NCBI RefSeq assembly: GCF_001593285.1
Contig: NZ_CP012529.1
Span: forward strand, 868,001-932,000
Direction of reading: 5' to 3'
DNA from: Psychrobacter sp. P2G3
GTDB taxonomy: Bacteria > Pseudomonadota > Gammaproteobacteria > Pseudomonadales > Moraxellaceae
DNA length: 64,000 nt
In this document: positions 55,583-63,192 of the stretch, in pieces
Layout of the letters: every line of letters starts with the position of its first letter
How positions within the stretch are numbered: position 1 is the stretch's first letter
Notes under the pieces: generated by a model
The model's database searches: none
What the model was told of the DNA's origin: nothing
What the model saw: only the letters and a program-made list of their open reading frames with translations
Position numbers and translations under genes: made by a program

Positions 55583-56296
55583 CTATGATACAGCAAATAC
55601 GTCAACGTTGCCGTCACTATCAGTATTGTGAACTTGATCGATAATTTTCAGTTCGCGCTCGCAGAATGGTTCAATAAAACTAGCCACACTTTTGAGAGGT
55701 TTCATCGCTGTAAAACCTGCATCGATAAAGTCGTATAACGGCTGATAGCCACGACTATATGCCGTGCCTTTAGCAAAAGAAAAAGCCTTACGTAACATAA
55801 ATGAGTTGAGATATTTGTCGGTACGGTAACAGACTTCTTTAAGATTGTTAATCTGAACACGGCGTTCATCTGCTTCATTAACAGCGCGGTAAGCTTTAAG
55901 CATATTCTCTTCATTGACTGGTAGATCTTGCTCTAGCAACCATTGCGCCAAGTGCATATCCAGCTCAATCGCCAAAATAGCTGCCTGTACCGCCATAGTA
56001 CCAGTCTCTAATACGGACTCTTTGGCAAGTCGCTCAAGCTTTTTCGCTTTTGGAAGAATACGTTCTAGTTGTTTGGCCAATAGCTTAAACTCCTCACCCC
56101 CATATAGTTTGGTGAGAAAATAGCTTGCCATCGGCTTGTTGTTTGGCTGCTCAAATAGCTCTGAATGGGTGCGTTGAATACGCGCGCGTTGCCATGCTTG
56201 TACGTCATTAAGCTTAGCATGTAATGCTTCATCATCGTGATAAGGTAATGCCCAGTAGCGCGTTAAATGCTGTTGTAATTCAGATAAAGCAGACAT
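55583..56296 (-). CDS. FFLEELY-motif-type protein of unknown function
   Basis: A 237-residue, largely helical protein that resembles a family named after the FFLEELY motif; here the stretch reads ASYFLTKLYGGEEF near residue 60. It has the ARIQRTHSELF lead and a C-terminal helical region ending near FIEPFCERELKIIDQVHN. No signal peptide or membrane segment is seen and the role is unknown. Family membership rests on memory of related Moraxellaceae proteins. It stands alone, with about 120 bp to ubiE and about 240 bp to the divergent pap. Confidence 0.65.
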   Translation of the reverse strand: MSALSELQQHLTRYWALPYHDDEALHAKLNDVQAWQRARIQRTHSELFEQPNNKPMASYFLTKLYGGEEFKLLAKQLERILPKAKKLERLAKESVLETGTMAVQAAILAIELDMHLAQWLLEQDLPVNEENMLKAYRAVNEADERRVQINNLKEVCYRTDKYLNSFMLRKAFSFAKGTAYSRGYQPLYDFIDAGFTAMKPLKSVASFIEPFCERELKIIDQVHNTDSDGNVDVFAVS

Positions 56297-56535
56297 AGCA
56301 ATCCGTCCTGTATAGGTAAATGTGTATTTTTTAAATGGAAATGGCTTTTATTTTAAAGTTATAAATAGTCGTAAATAGCATCGCTAACGTAATATATTAC
56401 CTTAAAAGAAATTAACACAGAATACAAATGTCAAACTGTTACATAGCACTGTTATTTCCTGCTCAAACGGATGCTATTATTATTAAACAGTAATAATTAA
56501 TAAAAGCGCTTATAAAAATAAAATGGAATTAAGAT

Positions 56536-58377
56536 ATGTCTAATAATAAACAAGATCCTGTTCAGCATAAAGAGCAATCTAAAGATCAGAAGCTAAAAAC
56601 GGTAAACAATCAAATGAGCAAGCAAGTGATAGATCAGCGTTTGACTCTCAATCCCCTGAGTCAGTTTTCGATGGATAAGGATGCGCTTAGGTTGGCATTG
56701 GTGACTGCACAATATGCCTTGCGAGCGACCCGACAACAAACGCCGCCAACCGTCAATAAACCAACCGGGCTTCTGGTGCTGGTCAATGGGATGGAGCAGG
56801 CAGGCAAGGGCACTGCTGTCAAGCAATTGCGCCAGTGGGTCGATCCGCGATTATTAAAAGTAGAAGCAACGATTGGTCACCCGCCTCTCAAATACCAACC
56901 TATTTGGCAAGCTCATACAAAGGCCATGCCGCGTCATGGTGATGTCATGGTTTATTTTGGCAACTGGTATGCTGACCTGCTATATAACGTGATGCATATG
57001 GCAACCATAGCCATTCAGGATGAGGATATTAAAAAATCAACGCGTAATAAAAGTAAACATTCCAAAGATAAGTGCTCTAAGCATAAAGCTATTAACTACA
57101 ATGATTCAGATAAACATCAAATGCTACCTATTGCTAAATGGCAAGATTATTTGCAGCAGCAGCTGATTAAGTTGCAGATATTTGAGCGTGATCTAGCGGC
57201 GAACCAAACCAAGATACTGAAGTGCTGGTTTCATATTGATGTGGATACCTTGCAGGCACGTTTAAAGGATAAAGAGGCCGATCCACAGTTTTTATATCAA
57301 ATTGATTGGAGTGATACCGAGATATTAGCGCAGTTTAATCATGTTGCAGTGGCGTTATTAAGGCAACAAGATGACTGGGTCATTATTGATGGTAGTGATA
57401 AGTCGCAGGCCGCGACTGACTTTTGTCATGAAGTATTGCAAGCTATGCAGATGGCGCTTGCGAGTAGCGTTCCTGCAGATGATGACAAGGCTACTGACGA
57501 AATTACCGATGGAATGGCTGATAAAGCCACTAATGCTAGCAAAAATAACACTAATAACACTAATAACACTAATAAAAATAACAGCGAAAATAGTGATAAC
57601 AGCAATCAGAACTTTGCATCTAAAAACCCTGAATCTAGGAATTTTGTACCTGTAAAGATACCTGAGAAGCTTATAGAGATTGATGCTCCAGATGTAGATA
57701 AGTCAGATTATAATAAGCAACTTGCGAAGAAGCAAGGCAAGCTTGCAGAGTTACTACGTGCACGCAAGGGTCGTCATGTGGTATTTGCCTTTGAAGGAAT
57801 GGATGCTGCTGGCAAGGGCGGTGCTATTAAACGGCTTGTCGCACCACTCGATCCACGTGAGTACCAAGTTTATAATATTGGCGCACCGATGTTATATGAG
57901 TTGCAGCACCCATATTTGTGGCGATTTTGGACGAGTCTGCCAAATGAGCAGACTGATCGTATAAGCCGTATCGCTATCTTTGATCGTACTTGGTATGGAC
58001 GAGTATTGGTGGAGCGTGTCGAGGCGTTAACAGACAAGGCAGTTTGGCAGCGCGCCTATGATGAAATCAATCGTTTTGAAGCAGATCTAACAGCAGCAGG
58101 AACGATTGTTATAAAGTACTGGCTTGCTATCGATAAAAAAGAGCAGTTAAAACGTTTTGAAGATCGCCGCGAGACCCCGCATAAGCAATTTAAACTAACT
58201 GATGATGATTGGCGCAACCGTGATAAATGGCCAGACTATGTGCAAGCAGCGGCTGATATGCTGGCACGTACTGATACAATCGATACACCGTGGTGCGTAA
58301 TTGCAACTAACGAAAAGCGTCGTGCACGTTTAGAGGTACTAGACCATGCTATTGCACAACTAAAATTCCGCTCATAG
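56536..58377 (+). CDS. pap: Polyphosphate:AMP phosphotransferase (two-domain PPK2)
   Basis: Class II PPK2 enzyme that phosphorylates AMP to ADP with polyphosphate. Two PPK2 domains occur in tandem. The first (about residues 40-310) has a P-loop VNGMEQAGKGTAVKQL; the second (about 395-613) has FEGMDAAGKGGAIKRLVAPLDPREY and IAIFDRTWYGRVLVERVEAL. The lid motif of the second half is stronger than that of the first, so the C-terminal half is probably catalytic, as in Acinetobacter PAP. A Lys/Ser/His insert near residues 165-185 and an Asn/Thr repeat linker near 330-365 are unusual. Length 613 aa exceeds the typical 475-500. Confidence 0.88.
   Translation: MSNNKQDPVQHKEQSKDQKLKTVNNQMSKQVIDQRLTLNPLSQFSMDKDALRLALVTAQYALRATRQQTPPTVNKPTGLLVLVNGMEQAGKGTAVKQLRQWVDPRLLKVEATIGHPPLKYQPIWQAHTKAMPRHGDVMVYFGNWYADLLYNVMHMATIAIQDEDIKKSTRNKSKHSKDKCSKHKAINYNDSDKHQMLPIAKWQDYLQQQLIKLQIFERDLAANQTKILKCWFHIDVDTLQARLKDKEADPQFLYQIDWSDTEILAQFNHVAVALLRQQDDWVIIDGSDKSQAATDFCHEVLQAMQMALASSVPADDDKATDEITDGMADKATNASKNNTNNTNNTNKNNSENSDNSNQNFASKNPESRNFVPVKIPEKLIEIDAPDVDKSDYNKQLAKKQGKLAELLRARKGRHVVFAFEGMDAAGKGGAIKRLVAPLDPREYQVYNIGAPMLYELQHPYLWRFWTSLPNEQTDRISRIAIFDRTWYGRVLVERVEALTDKAVWQRAYDEINRFEADLTAAGTIVIKYWLAIDKKEQLKRFEDRRETPHKQFKLTDDDWRNRDKWPDYVQAAADMLARTDTIDTPWCVIATNEKRRARLEVLDHAIAQLKFRS
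57544..57570 (+). repeat. Three exact copies of a 9-bp tandem repeat within pap
   Basis: AATAACACT is repeated three times in frame (encoding NNT units), and a fourth degenerate copy follows. It lies in the linker between the two PPK2 domains, where unit gain or loss keeps the reading frame. Confidence 0.85.
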
Positions 58378-58745
58378 ATATTACATTAAGTACGATAGCA
58401 TTATTACAAAGCAACTGAAAAGAGATTGGGTTTAAAACGTCTTGATATTAATACCTTATATGTTTTCTTTGACAATTCACCGTGAATATTGATAATAGGG
58501 CCAACAATAACTGAAGATTCTATATACTCTTATTTAGCCTAAGCAAAAGTAAGCACTATAAAGACAGCTGATGCAGATATCTTCAGTTACAAATCTTATA
58601 GTATCATTATGCATTATGTTCAATTATTTAATATAATAGGCACGTGCTCGCAATGGCTGAATAAGCAATCTGCTAATTTCAGCGCAAAGTTATATTACAA
58701 GTGGGTTATTAGCCTTATTTAATAGCAATAATTAAGTTGTTAAAA

Positions 58746-58773
58746 TTGACAGTATCATGAACATAGCTATCAT
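58746..58773 (+). promoter_or_regulatory. Candidate sigma-70 promoter upstream of pit
   Basis: TTGACA (58746-58751) and TATCAT (58768-58773) with a 16-bp spacer. Transcription would begin near 58780, right before the hairpin and 320 nt ahead of the pit start codon. Confidence 0.4.
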
Positions 58774-58784
58774 GAGTGAATATT

Positions 58785-58836
58785 TAAGCCGCAAGATGCT
58801 TTAATCAAATGATTTAGCGTTATACCTTGCGGCTTA
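58785..58836 (+). other. Hairpin with 11-bp perfect arms in the pit leader region
   Basis: TAAGCCGCAAG (58785-58795) pairs exactly with CTTGCGGCTTA (58826-58836), around a 30-nt loop. No T-run follows, so it is not a classical terminator. It could belong to a long pit leader or a small RNA. Confidence 0.45.
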
Positions 58837-59098
58837 GTAGTATGTTAGACGCTCTAATTTCTATCGCACGTTTATAACGTGAAAAAGTCAATATAATGAC
58901 AAAAAATCGATAAAAATCTACAAGCCAATAAATTTCTAAAAAAGTACTTAAAGCAGTGTTTCAAAACAGTATTCAAAAGAACCATGTCGCGCATATGATG
59001 TCATGACTTTAATCCTCCTCTGACATAGATAGTGTTATGCGTTGCAATGTTATCAATCGCAAGTATTTTCAATCAGCTTACGCAAGGCGTATTAATTT

Positions 59099-60706
59099 AT
59101 GGGTATTAGCAGCAGTTCTACAGAGCCGACCAAACCAGTTGGCAATATGAGAATCAATCTATTTTTTGCTATTTTACTGATTGCGATGACCAGCTATTTT
59201 TTATGGTGGGGATTCGATTACACCCTGCGTCAACAGACAACGCTATTCATTGTTGCGACGGCTTTTGGTGTCTTCATGGCATTCAATATCGGTGGTAATG
59301 ATGTCGCCAACTCTTTTGGTACCTCAGTAGGTTCTGGCACCTTGACTATCCCGCAAGCGTTATGTGTGGCAGCGATATTTGAAGTGTCGGGGGCAGTACT
59401 GGCTGGTGGTGAAGTGACCGATACTATTCGAAGCGGAATTGTCGATTTAGATGGTCTGAGTGTCACGCCCAATCAGTTCATCTATGTCATGCTTTCAGCT
59501 TTGATTGCTGCTGCATTTTGGCTGTTGTTTGCTACGCGTAAAGGCTTACCAGTTTCAACGACGCACTCCATTATCGGTGGGGTTGTTGGTAGTTCCATTG
59601 TCCTTGGCATCACTCTGGGCGGTACTGAGATGGCGCTATCAACGGTAGATTGGGGAACCGTTGGAACTATTGCTATCTCTTGGGTATTGTCGCCGCTACT
59701 AGGTGGTGTTCTGTCCTACCTCCTATATGGACGGATTAAGAAAAACATCATTGAATATAATGATAAAACAGAGGCGCACATTGCGACACTCAAAGGCAAC
59801 AAAAAAACCTTAAAGCAAAATCATAAAGAGTTTTTAGACGCTCTAACAGAGTCAGAGCAACTCGCTTATACTTCAGCGATGTTACGTGACCAAGAAATCT
59901 ACAAAGATGATGATTGTATTGTTGAAGAATTAGAAACCGATTATTATAAACGGCTTTATGAAATTGAAAACGAGCGCAGTAACCTTGATACGCTAAAAGC
60001 ACTTAAACAATGGGTACCTATTATTGCCGCTGCAGGTGGCGCAGTAATGACCTCTCTAGTCGTCTTTAAAGGCTTGAAAAATGTCAATAACGGCTTGACG
60101 ACCCTGCAGGGTTTTCTAATCATGGGGATGATAGCGGCGTTGGTGTGGCTCGCGACCTTTATCTATACCAAGAGTATCCGTGGTAAACATAAAGAAGACT
60201 TAACCAAAGCGACATTTATTATGTTTAGCTGGATGCAGGTCTTTACCGCATCAGCCTTTGCTTTTAGTCATGGTTCAAATGATATCGCTAACGCTGTTGG
60301 TCCATTTGCAGCGATCATGGATGTGATTCGTACTAATAGTATTTCCACAGAAGCTGCGGTACCACCTGCTGTGATGCTGACCTTTGGTGTGGCACTTATT
60401 GTTGGTCTTTGGTTCATTGGTAAAGAAGTTATCCAAACAGTGGGTACCAATTTGGCAAAAATGCATCCTGCTTCTGGTTTCTCAGCTGAATTGGCTGCCG
60501 CTGCTGTGGTTATGGGTGCATCGACGATGGGTCTGCCAGTATCGAGCACCCATACCTTAGTAGGTGCGGTACTGGGTATTGGTATTGTTAATAGAGATAC
60601 CAACTGGAAACTCATGAAGCCGATTGGTCTGGCTTGGATCGTTACTCTTCCTGCAGCGGCTTCAATGTCTGCAATCAGTTATATCGTATTGGTCAACATC
60701 TTTTAA
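59099..60706 (+). CDS. pit: Low-affinity inorganic phosphate transporter, Pit family
   Basis: Polytopic inner-membrane phosphate symporter. Both Pit signatures are present: the N-terminal NIGGNDVANSFGTSVGSGTLTIPQALCVAAIFEVSGAVLAGGEVT and the C-terminal SHGSNDIANAVGPFAAI, plus two copies of the GLPVSTTHSIIGGVVG/GLPVSSTHTLVGAVLG loop. A charged cytoplasmic domain (about residues 205-300) joins the halves. The 535-aa length is typical. It is monocistronic, and a terminator follows. pap next door also concerns phosphate, which may be coincidence. Confidence 0.93.
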   Translation: MGISSSSTEPTKPVGNMRINLFFAILLIAMTSYFLWWGFDYTLRQQTTLFIVATAFGVFMAFNIGGNDVANSFGTSVGSGTLTIPQALCVAAIFEVSGAVLAGGEVTDTIRSGIVDLDGLSVTPNQFIYVMLSALIAAAFWLLFATRKGLPVSTTHSIIGGVVGSSIVLGITLGGTEMALSTVDWGTVGTIAISWVLSPLLGGVLSYLLYGRIKKNIIEYNDKTEAHIATLKGNKKTLKQNHKEFLDALTESEQLAYTSAMLRDQEIYKDDDCIVEELETDYYKRLYEIENERSNLDTLKALKQWVPIIAAAGGAVMTSLVVFKGLKNVNNGLTTLQGFLIMGMIAALVWLATFIYTKSIRGKHKEDLTKATFIMFSWMQVFTASAFAFSHGSNDIANAVGPFAAIMDVIRTNSISTEAAVPPAVMLTFGVALIVGLWFIGKEVIQTVGTNLAKMHPASGFSAELAAAAVVMGASTMGLPVSSTHTLVGAVLGIGIVNRDTNWKLMKPIGLAWIVTLPAAASMSAISYIVLVNIF

Positions 60707-60885: not shown

Positions 60886-62541
60886 TTAAGCAGTACCGAA
60901 TTGCTGGCGTTTTTTGGCAAAGAAGCGATCTAAGCGATCCATAGCGTCTTCTAAATCATGCAGATTGGGCAAGAACACCACGCGGAAATGATCAGGTGCA
61001 TCCCAGTTAAAGCCAGTACCTTGCACCATTAATACTTTTTCCTCTAGTAGAAGCTCCATCATAAACTGCATGTCATCCTCTATAGGATAAACGGCAGGAT
61101 CCATCTTTGGAAAGCAGTAAAATGCGCCTTGAGGCATGGTGCAAGAAATGCCTTTGATAGCATTAAGACGTGAAACAGCCATTTCGCGTTGCTTATGTAA
61201 ACGTCCTTTTTCTGAAGTTAATTCTTTCATACTTTGATAGCCACCCATCGCGGTCTGAATTGCATACTGTCCTGTGACGTTTGAGCATAGGCGCATGGAC
61301 GCAAGCATGTCCAAGCCTTCAATAAAATCGCTGGCATGTTGTTTTTTACCAGAAACCATCATCCAGCCAGCGCGAAAGCCTGCAATCCGATGCGATTTAG
61401 ATAGTCCGTTATACGATAAAATAAGAACCTCATCAGACAAGGTGCTCATTGGCGTATGCACCATGTCGTCATAAAGCACGCGATCATAAATCTCATCTGC
61501 CATAATGACCAAGTCATGCTCAATGGCAACTTCAATGATTTGTTTGAGGACTTCATCTGAATAAAGCGCACCCGTAGGGTTATTAGGATTGATGACGACA
61601 ATGCCTTTGGTCTTGCTAGTAATCTTTGATTTGATATCTTCAATATCAGGATGCCAGTTGTCTTCTTCATTACAGCGATAATGCACTGCTGTACCGCCAG
61701 CGAGATTGGTTGCTGCTGTCCATAATGGATAATCTGGCATCGGAATCAAAACCTCATCACCATCATTCATCAACGCCTGCATAGTCATGACGATCAGCTC
61801 AGAAACGCCATTACCTAAATAGACATCACGCACATCTACGGCAGATAGCAGGCCTTTTGATTGATAATATTGCAGTACAGCTTTACGTGCCGAAAAAATA
61901 CCTTGCGAGTCTGAATATCCAGTGGCTTCAGGCAAGTTCATTGCTACATCACGCAGGATTTCATGTGGTGCGCTAAGTCCGAAGGGAGCAGGGTTACCAA
62001 TGTTTAGTTTTAAAATACGCTGACCTTCTGCTTCCATCTTAGTCGCTGTTTGTAGCAATGGTCCACGGATGTCGTAGCAAACGTTTTGTAATTTAGTAGA
62101 TTTTTTTAGTGATGTCATAGTATTACTACCTGTAGTTATTTTATTTTTTGAGTCTGCTTGCTGGTCTGTTGATTGTATTGCGCTGTTAGCTTGCTTACTG
62201 ACAGTTTTTTCTTGTGAATTATAAGATGGATGATGAATGGCTTGAGTATCTGATGGGCTAGCTAGTCTATCGTTGTTAATAGCGTCTTGATTCTTGTCGT
62301 CACTCTTTAGGTCGCCACGAAGTAAGTAACCTTCGCTACATCCCAAGATACGTGCGAGAGTTGGCAGTTTAGATGAGACGATACCGTTAGTGCCACGCTC
62401 CCAATTGGAGATCGCGCCGCGACTAACTTTTGCACCAGCTTCAGTCATCGCTTGAGCCAATTGCTCAGCAGTAAGACCCTTATCTCGACGCAACTGTACT
62501 AAACGTTCGGCTTGTGTCAGCTTGTCCTTAGTATCACTCAT
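60886..62541 (-). CDS. XRE-type HTH fused to an AlaA-like aminotransferase
   Basis: Residues 11-75 are a helix-turn-helix (AERLVQLRRDKGLTAEQLAQAM, then KVSRGAISNWERG and LARILGCSEGYLL). Residues 80-140 are a polar, disordered linker. From Met142 (MTSLKKSTKLQNVCYDIRGP) the protein aligns with the start of E. coli AlaA and continues as a class I aminotransferase: NIGNPAPFG, GYSDSQGIFSARKAVLQYY, NPNNPTGALYS, ADEIYDRVLYDD, and the PLP lysine at residue 382 in NGLSKSHRIAGFR. AlaA makes alanine from pyruvate and glutamate. ACTACAGGTAGTAATACT before Met142 contains an AGGT box, so a stand-alone enzyme could also be made. It is unrelated to the MocR layout (GntR-type HTH). Putative operators lie upstream at 62651-62723. 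Confidence 0.88.
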   Translation of the reverse strand: MSDTKDKLTQAERLVQLRRDKGLTAEQLAQAMTEAGAKVSRGAISNWERGTNGIVSSKLPTLARILGCSEGYLLRGDLKSDDKNQDAINNDRLASPSDTQAIHHPSYNSQEKTVSKQANSAIQSTDQQADSKNKITTGSNTMTSLKKSTKLQNVCYDIRGPLLQTATKMEAEGQRILKLNIGNPAPFGLSAPHEILRDVAMNLPEATGYSDSQGIFSARKAVLQYYQSKGLLSAVDVRDVYLGNGVSELIVMTMQALMNDGDEVLIPMPDYPLWTAATNLAGGTAVHYRCNEEDNWHPDIEDIKSKITSKTKGIVVINPNNPTGALYSDEVLKQIIEVAIEHDLVIMADEIYDRVLYDDMVHTPMSTLSDEVLILSYNGLSKSHRIAGFRAGWMMVSGKKQHASDFIEGLDMLASMRLCSNVTGQYAIQTAMGGYQSMKELTSEKGRLHKQREMAVSRLNAIKGISCTMPQGAFYCFPKMDPAVYPIEDDMQFMMELLLEEKVLMVQGTGFNWDAPDHFRVVFLPNLHDLEDAMDRLDRFFAKKRQQFGTA

Positions 62542-62650
62542 AATCGTCCCAGCCTTCTATTTTGTTAGAGCTATTTTAATGACTCTAATTAGGTGTTTTT
62601 AATAAATTAAGATTTTAATTGGTATGGAATTATATTTTCACTGTGTCTAT

Positions 62651-62667
62651 TGCAAGATATTATTGCA
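62651..62667. promoter_or_regulatory. Dyad operator candidate TGCAA-N7-TTGCA (site 1)
   Basis: TGCAA (62651-62655) and TTGCA (62663-62667) form an inverted repeat with the same 17-bp geometry as the better site at 62705. It lies 110 bp upstream of the start codon of the HTH-aminotransferase gene, which may regulate itself here. Confidence 0.5.
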
Positions 62668-62680
62668 TTATTTACATGGA

Positions 62681-62686
62681 TGCAAG
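62681..62686. promoter_or_regulatory. Half-site TGCAAG between the two dyads
   Basis: A single TGCAAG follows site 1 by 30 bp and precedes site 3 by 24 bp. The expected TTGCA partner is absent (AACAA instead). Confidence 0.3.
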
Positions 62687-62702
62687 TTTTTTAACAATTG
62701 AT

Positions 62703-62723
62703 AATGCAAGTTATTCTTGCATT
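62703..62723. promoter_or_regulatory. Perfect dyad operator candidate (site 3)
   Basis: AATGCAAG (62703-62710) and CTTGCATT (62716-62723) are exact complements with 5 bp between. The core is again TGCAA-N7-TTGCA. An arm of 8 bp is unlikely to arise by chance beside two related sites. Confidence 0.55.
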
Positions 62724-63192
62724 AAGTTAAGTGAGAATGTAATGGTAGTTTCAATAAGATTATAAATATCATCATAGCTGACATAAGAATTAGTAATCTG
62801 CATTAAATAAACTGGAAATGACACAGGTTCTAATCGTCACATAGTGTTGTTATATTCTTTATAATCATGATGTTATTAAAGTCTTAACTAGCTTATTAGT
62901 GTTTACCTCACAGCTCGCATTTTTACGTGTAGATTTGGTAAATGTAGAGAAGGATTTATTGTGTAATCATGGTGAATTGCTATATCTTATTTATCTACTA
63001 TGCTGAGTACTACATACATTCATTAACAAATACGGGCAGCGGGTTTTAGATACTTGCCTTGAATAACTGGCTTATAACCAACAGATAAAGAACGTTAGAT
63101 TAGTCTCTTAAAGTGTTCGCAATAGTACTTTATTAACAGGCTAGATAATAATTGGCAGACTAGATAATAAATACTCAAATTAAGGATAGACC

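Follow-up and report, generated by a model that had tools for sequence, protein, structure and literature searches.

A Fused XRE-Type Helix-Turn-Helix and Alanine Aminotransferase in Psychrobacter, a Candidate Repressor of Its Own Gene

Domain layout of the fused gene

The window, as the whole analysed stretch of 64,000 nucleotides from Psychrobacter sp. P2G3 is called here, carries on its minus strand a single open reading frame whose product joins an XRE-type helix-turn-helix (HTH) to a full AlaA-like enzyme through a polar linker. The preliminary description of this DNA had proposed such an arrangement, and it is borne out by matches to Pfam families and to E. coli AlaA (4cvq).

60886..62541, minus strand: fused gene, XRE HTH, linker and AlaA; 551 codons plus stop (ORF list)
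62553..62558, minus strand: candidate Shine-Dalgarno AGAAGG of the main start (read from the sequence)
62314..62508, minus strand: XRE-type HTH, residues 12-76 (Pfam HTH_19/HTH_3; identity in 31 homologues)
62119..62313, minus strand: variable polar linker, residues 77-141 (identity and gaps among homologues)
60886..62118, minus strand: AlaA enzyme, residues 142-551 and stop (4cvq match; homologue alignment)

Over residues 12-76, HTH_3 was matched above its cut-off (E 5.3e-6; 26.8 bits against 23), HTH_19 below it (E 9.8e-7; 29 bits against 30.2) and HTH_31 narrowly below. The HTH_3 match places the head in the XRE family of Cro/CI-type HTHs, as do those of other XRE heads on AlaA (class 1 in what follows). 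The enzyme part matches Aminotran_1_2 on residues 177-535 (E 8.5e-59), and the best solved relative of the protein is E. coli AlaA 4cvq, a full-length relationship across residues 140-542 (E 6e-167). Homology to the enzyme had been said to start at Met142, where E. coli AlaA begins, and Met142 indeed aligns to the first Met of the native 4cvq sequence. The top model for this part is the NCBIfam alanine aminotransferase PRK08363, which at 348 bits lies below its cut-off of 534. N321, D349, Y352, K382, R390 and R520, which we take to be the PLP lysine and cofactor residues (K382 being the likely lysine), are invariant in the 31 homologues, and at the level of sequence the enzyme is intact.

Mean pairwise identity among these homologues is 82% in the enzyme part and 71% in the HTH (residues 10-76), reaching 88% in segment 40-50, whereas the linker retains only 12% with 29% gaps; the HTH, on whose conservation the preliminary description had staked its proposal, is therefore maintained by selection. 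The fused gene is the sole AlaA found in the 3.37-Mb genome, where its nearest paralogue is 28% identical. In the window it lies divergent from msrB, with a glutathione peroxidase gene (gpx) also adjacent, and its further neighbours at 55583-60706 are likely a phosphate cluster comprising a PhoU-like protein, a two-domain polyphosphate kinase 2-like protein and a PiT-type phosphate transporter (all names by eye).

The top named relatives of the fused protein belong to Moraxella and Psychrobacter, both of the family Moraxellaceae, and the fusion is widespread in that family, as had been surmised. AlaA was found at E<=1e-100 in 340 of the 348 genomes surveyed, and class 1 was present in Psychrobacter, Moraxella and the genera g6, g7, g8 and g11. 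A first look at G212, a single-contig genome of Moraxella genus g14 with a listed completeness of 100%, turned up neither AlaA nor an aminotransferase candidate, which is odd for a complete genome.

Dyads upstream of XRE-headed alaA

Two dyads of the form TGCAAG-N5-CTTGCA lie approximately 110-180 nt upstream of the fused gene, with a half-site between them.

62702..62724, no strand assigned: distal dyad TAATGCAAG-TTATT-CTTGCATTA, candidate operator; perfect ATGCAAG-N5-CTTGCAT at 62704-62722
62680..62686, no strand assigned: half-site ATGCAAG between the two dyads (repeat family D5)
62650..62668, no strand assigned: proximal dyad with 2 mismatches, candidate operator; core TGCAATAATATCTTGCA
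62659..62667, minus strand: TGCAATAAT, possible extended -10 within the proximal dyad

With as many as 3 mismatches allowed, the window holds four dyad matches where shuffles hold a mean of 6.65, which is no excess, so that the weight rests on the conservation of the dyads and not on their count in the window. The proximal core TGCAATAATATCTTGCA is the same in 30/30 loci of the genus (L001, L009-L037). Within it, TGCAATAAT presumably fits the extended -10 element; a consensus scan listed other sites and not this one. If the proximal dyad overlaps the -10 in this way, an operator placed there would mean repression.

The occurrence of the dyad was compared with that of the head by scoring TGCAAG-N5-CTTGCA in upstream sequence of at most 600 nt, a copy counting when at least 10 of its 12 positions agreed; 26 of 1560 shuffled upstreams and 16 of 158 stretches of coding sequence also attained this score. 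The dyad was present upstream of 57 of 60 XRE-AlaA genes (L073, L075 and L082 have none at this threshold) and of 0 of 38 AlaA genes that have a different head or lack one, a set in which L078 and L107 offered 211 and 134 nt of upstream sequence and from which L101, an unfused gene with a long GC-rich frame, was excluded. The handles L136 and L088 denote one and the same gene. In a separate set of named loci the dyad was found in 64/65 Psychrobacter and 13/13 Moraxella-type loci; these share genomes with the G-series loci, and the two sets of counts therefore cannot be summed. The AlaA of Moraxella oculi (L235) has neither HTH nor dyad, and head and operator were apparently lost together there. 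A record titled Streptomyces cinereus JCM 3040 (L257) contains a Moraxella-type XRE-AlaA and is probably mislabelled or contaminated.

It is conceivable, if very improbable, that the dyads serve another XRE regulator or the divergent msrB and that the fused HTH is idle. The position of msrB in the window would suit this, as would the finding that 62 of 66 Psychrobacter loci have it close to alaA. However, the dyad follows the XRE head across relatives, and it occurs in all Moraxella-type loci, although msrB was near alaA in 8/13 of them and was not found nearby in the other 5/13. An unused HTH should also drift, yet the fused one stays 71% identical.

Genome-wide searches place the motif at alaA. 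Of 104 genomes of the genus, 85 contain the strict motif WTGCAAGNWWWNCTTGCAW exactly and 19 lack it in this form; it occurred once in 84 genomes and twice in G312, for 86 sites in total, and the backward control gave 0 throughout. Among the 75 of 86 sites listed, 74 adjoin alaA and one lies at a contig end: 30 were taken as loci, 29 with alaA alongside and one at the contig end with msrB and gpx, and for the remaining 45 an alaA match follows 98-336 nt downstream. At the contig-end site (L159, genome G257) alaA is on a separate contig, perhaps because an inserted element has parted the promoter from its gene. G312 has two alaA matches as well as two operators, perhaps because two strains are present (contamination is listed as 5%). 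In 31 genomes of Moraxella and its neighbours, a slightly shorter motif gave 9 sites in 8 genomes, 8/9 of them at alaA when compared by eye; the ninth lies within a pilin ORF. In the genome of the window itself, the strict motif with 1 mismatch was found at two places, both at alaA, with two also in the backward control. In its strict form, as read from these genomes, the motif is nearly confined to the promoter of alaA.

The preliminary description had suggested that the protein could act as a metabolic sensor of the pyruvate, alanine or PLP state. These searches bear on a rival reading built on that idea, a sensor with a wider regulon, whose enzyme part would do the sensing and whose HTH would control several genes. 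An enzyme and an HTH do lie in a single chain, and the principle is seen in MocR regulators (PMC5320631). In the genome of the window, moreover, the loose motif TGCAAGNNNNNCTTGCA with 2 mismatches gave 223 matches against 74 in the backward control, an excess that may reflect weaker further targets or a composition effect. Exact loose sites gave no such regulon, as there are 2 in this genome, one at alaA and the other (1073602) with a GC-rich spacer that fails the AT-spacer motif. Against a wider regulon, the strict motif lies only at alaA among the sites listed, and so does the shorter motif at 8/9 sites in the Moraxella group. We consider a wider regulon unlikely; unlike in the sensor picture, the visible target of the fused regulator seems to be alaA itself.

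Other heads on AlaA and their upstream repeats

Beyond class 1, AlaA carries several other N-terminal heads. Class 2, a head of 56 aa, was found in genus g4 and in 121/175 genomes of g2 (full-length matches, manual count), a genus read as Acinetobacter from A. baumannii matches at 94.6%. Class 3 occurs in three genomes of genus g5, and class 4 in five loci of genus g16 plus two read later. Headless AlaA was seen in loci read in g3, g9, g10, g12, g13, g15 and part of g2, and in two Acinetobacter genomes no remnants of a former class 2 head were seen. The class 2 alaA of A. baumannii is transcribed away from msrB and a gene for glutathione peroxidase, as in the window, and two different heads are therefore found at one syntenic locus. 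One annotated A. baumannii record names the class 2 protein merely as a pyridoxal phosphate-dependent aminotransferase.

Pfam gave nothing convincing on the class 2, 3 and 4 heads. The class 2 head is related to StbA of plasmid R388 (7pc1; E 8.4e-5, or 5.1e-6 by profile) and also matches small hypothetical proteins on plasmids of Acinetobacter, Moraxella and Psychrobacter; a match to TALE proteins was not accepted, because its score adds up repeats that are worth a few bits apiece. For the class 3 head, matches came from small mobilizable plasmids, to hypothetical proteins (E 7e-4), among them unnamed relatives of the head (H22-H41). Searches for solved relatives gave none for the heads of classes 3 and 4, of which the former reads as a plasmid-type domain and the latter as HTH-like; our reading is that both probably bind DNA.

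At order rank, AlaA was found at E<=1e-120 in 124 of 145 genomes. Of 20 loci with longer open frames that were read, three, all from one family, have a domain, and the remaining 17/20 have no recognisable domain and are mostly GC-rich chance frames; several further loci have open frames of up to 457 codons. Class 6, the head in these three genomes, which belong to a different family of the order, matches P22_Cro at E 4e-7, its 30.1 bits falling just short of the cut-off at 30.2. At class rank, 17/166 genomes match at E<=1e-120, and no fusion was seen in the five loci read among them. In a tree of the enzyme with 63 rows (L101 again excluded), classes 3 and 4 each form one branch, and the numbers of changes are two for class 1, five for class 2 and eight for headless AlaA; the tree is midpoint-rooted, and the order of head gains, swaps and losses cannot be taken from its branching.

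Three of the four non-XRE heads (classes 2, 3, 4 and 6) have an upstream repeat of their own, and two of these repeats were checked genome-wide. Class 2 upstreams carry direct repeats like GYAAGCAAA; the pair pattern occurred at 12 places in 22 genomes, 9 at alaA and 3 elsewhere, against 3 in the backward control. At alaA it was found in 6 of 14 genomes carrying the class 2 head, and one of the six, G072, in which the head was confirmed, was outside the set used for repeat discovery. Class 4 upstreams carry ATAGG-N6-CCTAT in 5/5. This palindrome occurred once per genome, upstream of alaA, in 7/7 g16 genomes with alaA, in 0/2 g16 genomes without an alaA match and in 0/8 other genomes (backward control, 2 places); G344 and G347, both outside the discovery set, have class 4 head and palindrome. 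For class 6, ATGTCAAT-N4-ATTGACAT was found upstream in L183, with a shorter form in L184 by eye, and was absent upstream in L185. Inspection of class 3 upstreams gave no convincing repeat.

Self-regulation is the best reading of this evidence, because the HTH has been kept, strict dyads lie at the gene's own promoter, the dyad is lost with the head, and other heads come with repeats of their own. The fused AlaA is probably a trigger enzyme that acts chiefly on its own gene and would repress it; the alanine aminotransferase would thereby act also as a repressor. AlaA-type enzymes are dimers, and the two HTH heads of a dimer, on their long linkers, could therefore grip the two halves of the TGCAAG-N5-CTTGCA dyad. 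The proximal dyad would overlap the likely -10, with the distal dyad and half-site just upstream, and transcription would therefore stop when enzyme is plentiful. Substrate or PLP may influence this putative binding.

Internal start, head capture and known systems

The preliminary description also suggested that the gene gives two products, the second starting at Met142 behind an AGGT box.

62116..62118, minus strand: Met142 codon, candidate internal start (61/61 class 1 clusters have an ATG close to the core)
62128..62131, minus strand: AGGT, candidate internal Shine-Dalgarno (pairing -4.0 kcal/mol)

The box is there, at 62131..62128, 9 nt before the codon 62118..62116. In the genes shown from the genus of the window, the codon of Met142 is conserved as ATG, and another codon often stands in its place in Moraxella and relatives. 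Strict conservation of Met142 and AGGT thus does not extend beyond the genus; what is kept there is some ATG at most 20 codons from the enzyme core, and the comparison therefore asked whether an ATG lies close to the core instead of at the exact position.

In 128 distinct linkers, Met was sought in codons -20 to +3 of the enzyme core. It was found in 105/105 of class 1, 12/12 of class 2, 3/3 of class 3, 5/5 of class 4 and 1/3 of class 6, and its density is 6.4% near the core against 1.0% in the remaining linker (a search pattern dropped L270 from this set, although it does have a Met). After removal of linkers 70% alike, an ATG near the core was present in 23/23 non-Psychrobacter and 38/38 Psychrobacter class 1 clusters, that is, 61/61. 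Anti-Shine-Dalgarno pairing before these ATGs averages -3.57 kcal/mol (non-Psychrobacter) and -3.86 kcal/mol (Psychrobacter), against -2.13 and -2.34 kcal/mol at matched enzyme Mets (p 0.002 and 0/5000) and -0.72 and -0.61 at other codons of the same stretch (0/2000 draws as low in each group); main starts average -3.29. All these p-values are optimistic because of the descent that clusters have in common. In class 2 pairing is weak (mean -1.56; 166/2000 draws as low), and in classes 3 and 4 together 132/2000 draws were as low.

A conserved internal start with ribosome-binding pairing is hence seen in class 1 only, where a second, head-less product is plausible, and it is there that the two-product idea gains comparative support, from an ATG in all clusters and pairing above two backgrounds. 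The internal Met may instead be a leftover from the ancestral start, or be retained for structural reasons, with no second product, a view to which we would give somewhat less than an even chance. Unfused AlaA begins at about the same position, and the weak pairing in class 2 and the draws in classes 3 and 4 fit this view. In class 1, in contrast, the Met shifts place yet is present in every cluster, its pairing beats that of matched enzyme Mets and of the same-linker background in both groups, and Met is concentrated near the core. If made, the head-less enzyme of the XRE class would catalyse without binding DNA, and it could weaken repression through mixed dimers.

In a broader form of the self-repression reading, which we hold to be about as probable as its opposite, AlaA has captured at least five unrelated heads (XRE, StbA-like, another plasmid-type, HTH-like and Cro-like), each self-repressing through its own operator; the ratio of forms in the XRE class would set the feedback, and the XRE and StbA-like heads share the msrB-gpx locus. 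If this is true, a central enzyme of alanine synthesis gauges how much of it is present and turns its gene off accordingly, in genera among which are Psychrobacter, Moraxella and Acinetobacter. One enzyme with several heads, their repeats and headless lineages would then be a natural experiment on why feedback through fused DNA-binding domains evolves and which benefit it brings.

Set beside known systems, the enzyme part aligns end to end with E. coli AlaA (4cvq), which has no DNA-binding head. NadR consists of an XRE-type HTH fused to an enzyme and regulates NAD genes; it resembles the fused AlaA as an enzyme-HTH fusion and differs in the enzyme. In the passage of PMC8249747 on trigger enzymes, NadR is among those named, and AlaA is absent from the five E. 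coli trigger enzymes given there. PutA, described in the same source as a single-target regulator in E. coli, is likewise an enzyme with its own DNA-binding domain (PMC8249747). Among listings of open-licence PMC papers, none describing a DNA-binding AlaA turned up. MocR, GabR and PdxR fuse an HTH to a class I aminotransferase fold (PMC5320631). The fused protein is not one of them: their head is a GntR-type winged HTH, whereas it has an XRE head, with no GntR family in its Pfam list, and what follows the head and linker is a genuine AlaA sequence that keeps the invariant K382. StbA of plasmid R388 binds 9-bp direct repeats (PMC3098194); the class 2 head matches it and class 2 promoters carry direct repeats, but StbA is a plasmid segregation protein and not part of an enzyme. 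By its domains the fused AlaA combines, like trigger enzymes, an enzyme with a DNA-binding domain, and it differs from those known in being a PLP aminotransferase with an XRE domain, an apparent self-target and relatives with other heads. Compared with them, four things appear new: the enzyme involved, its apparent self-targeting, a probable second start and the repeated capture of unrelated heads.
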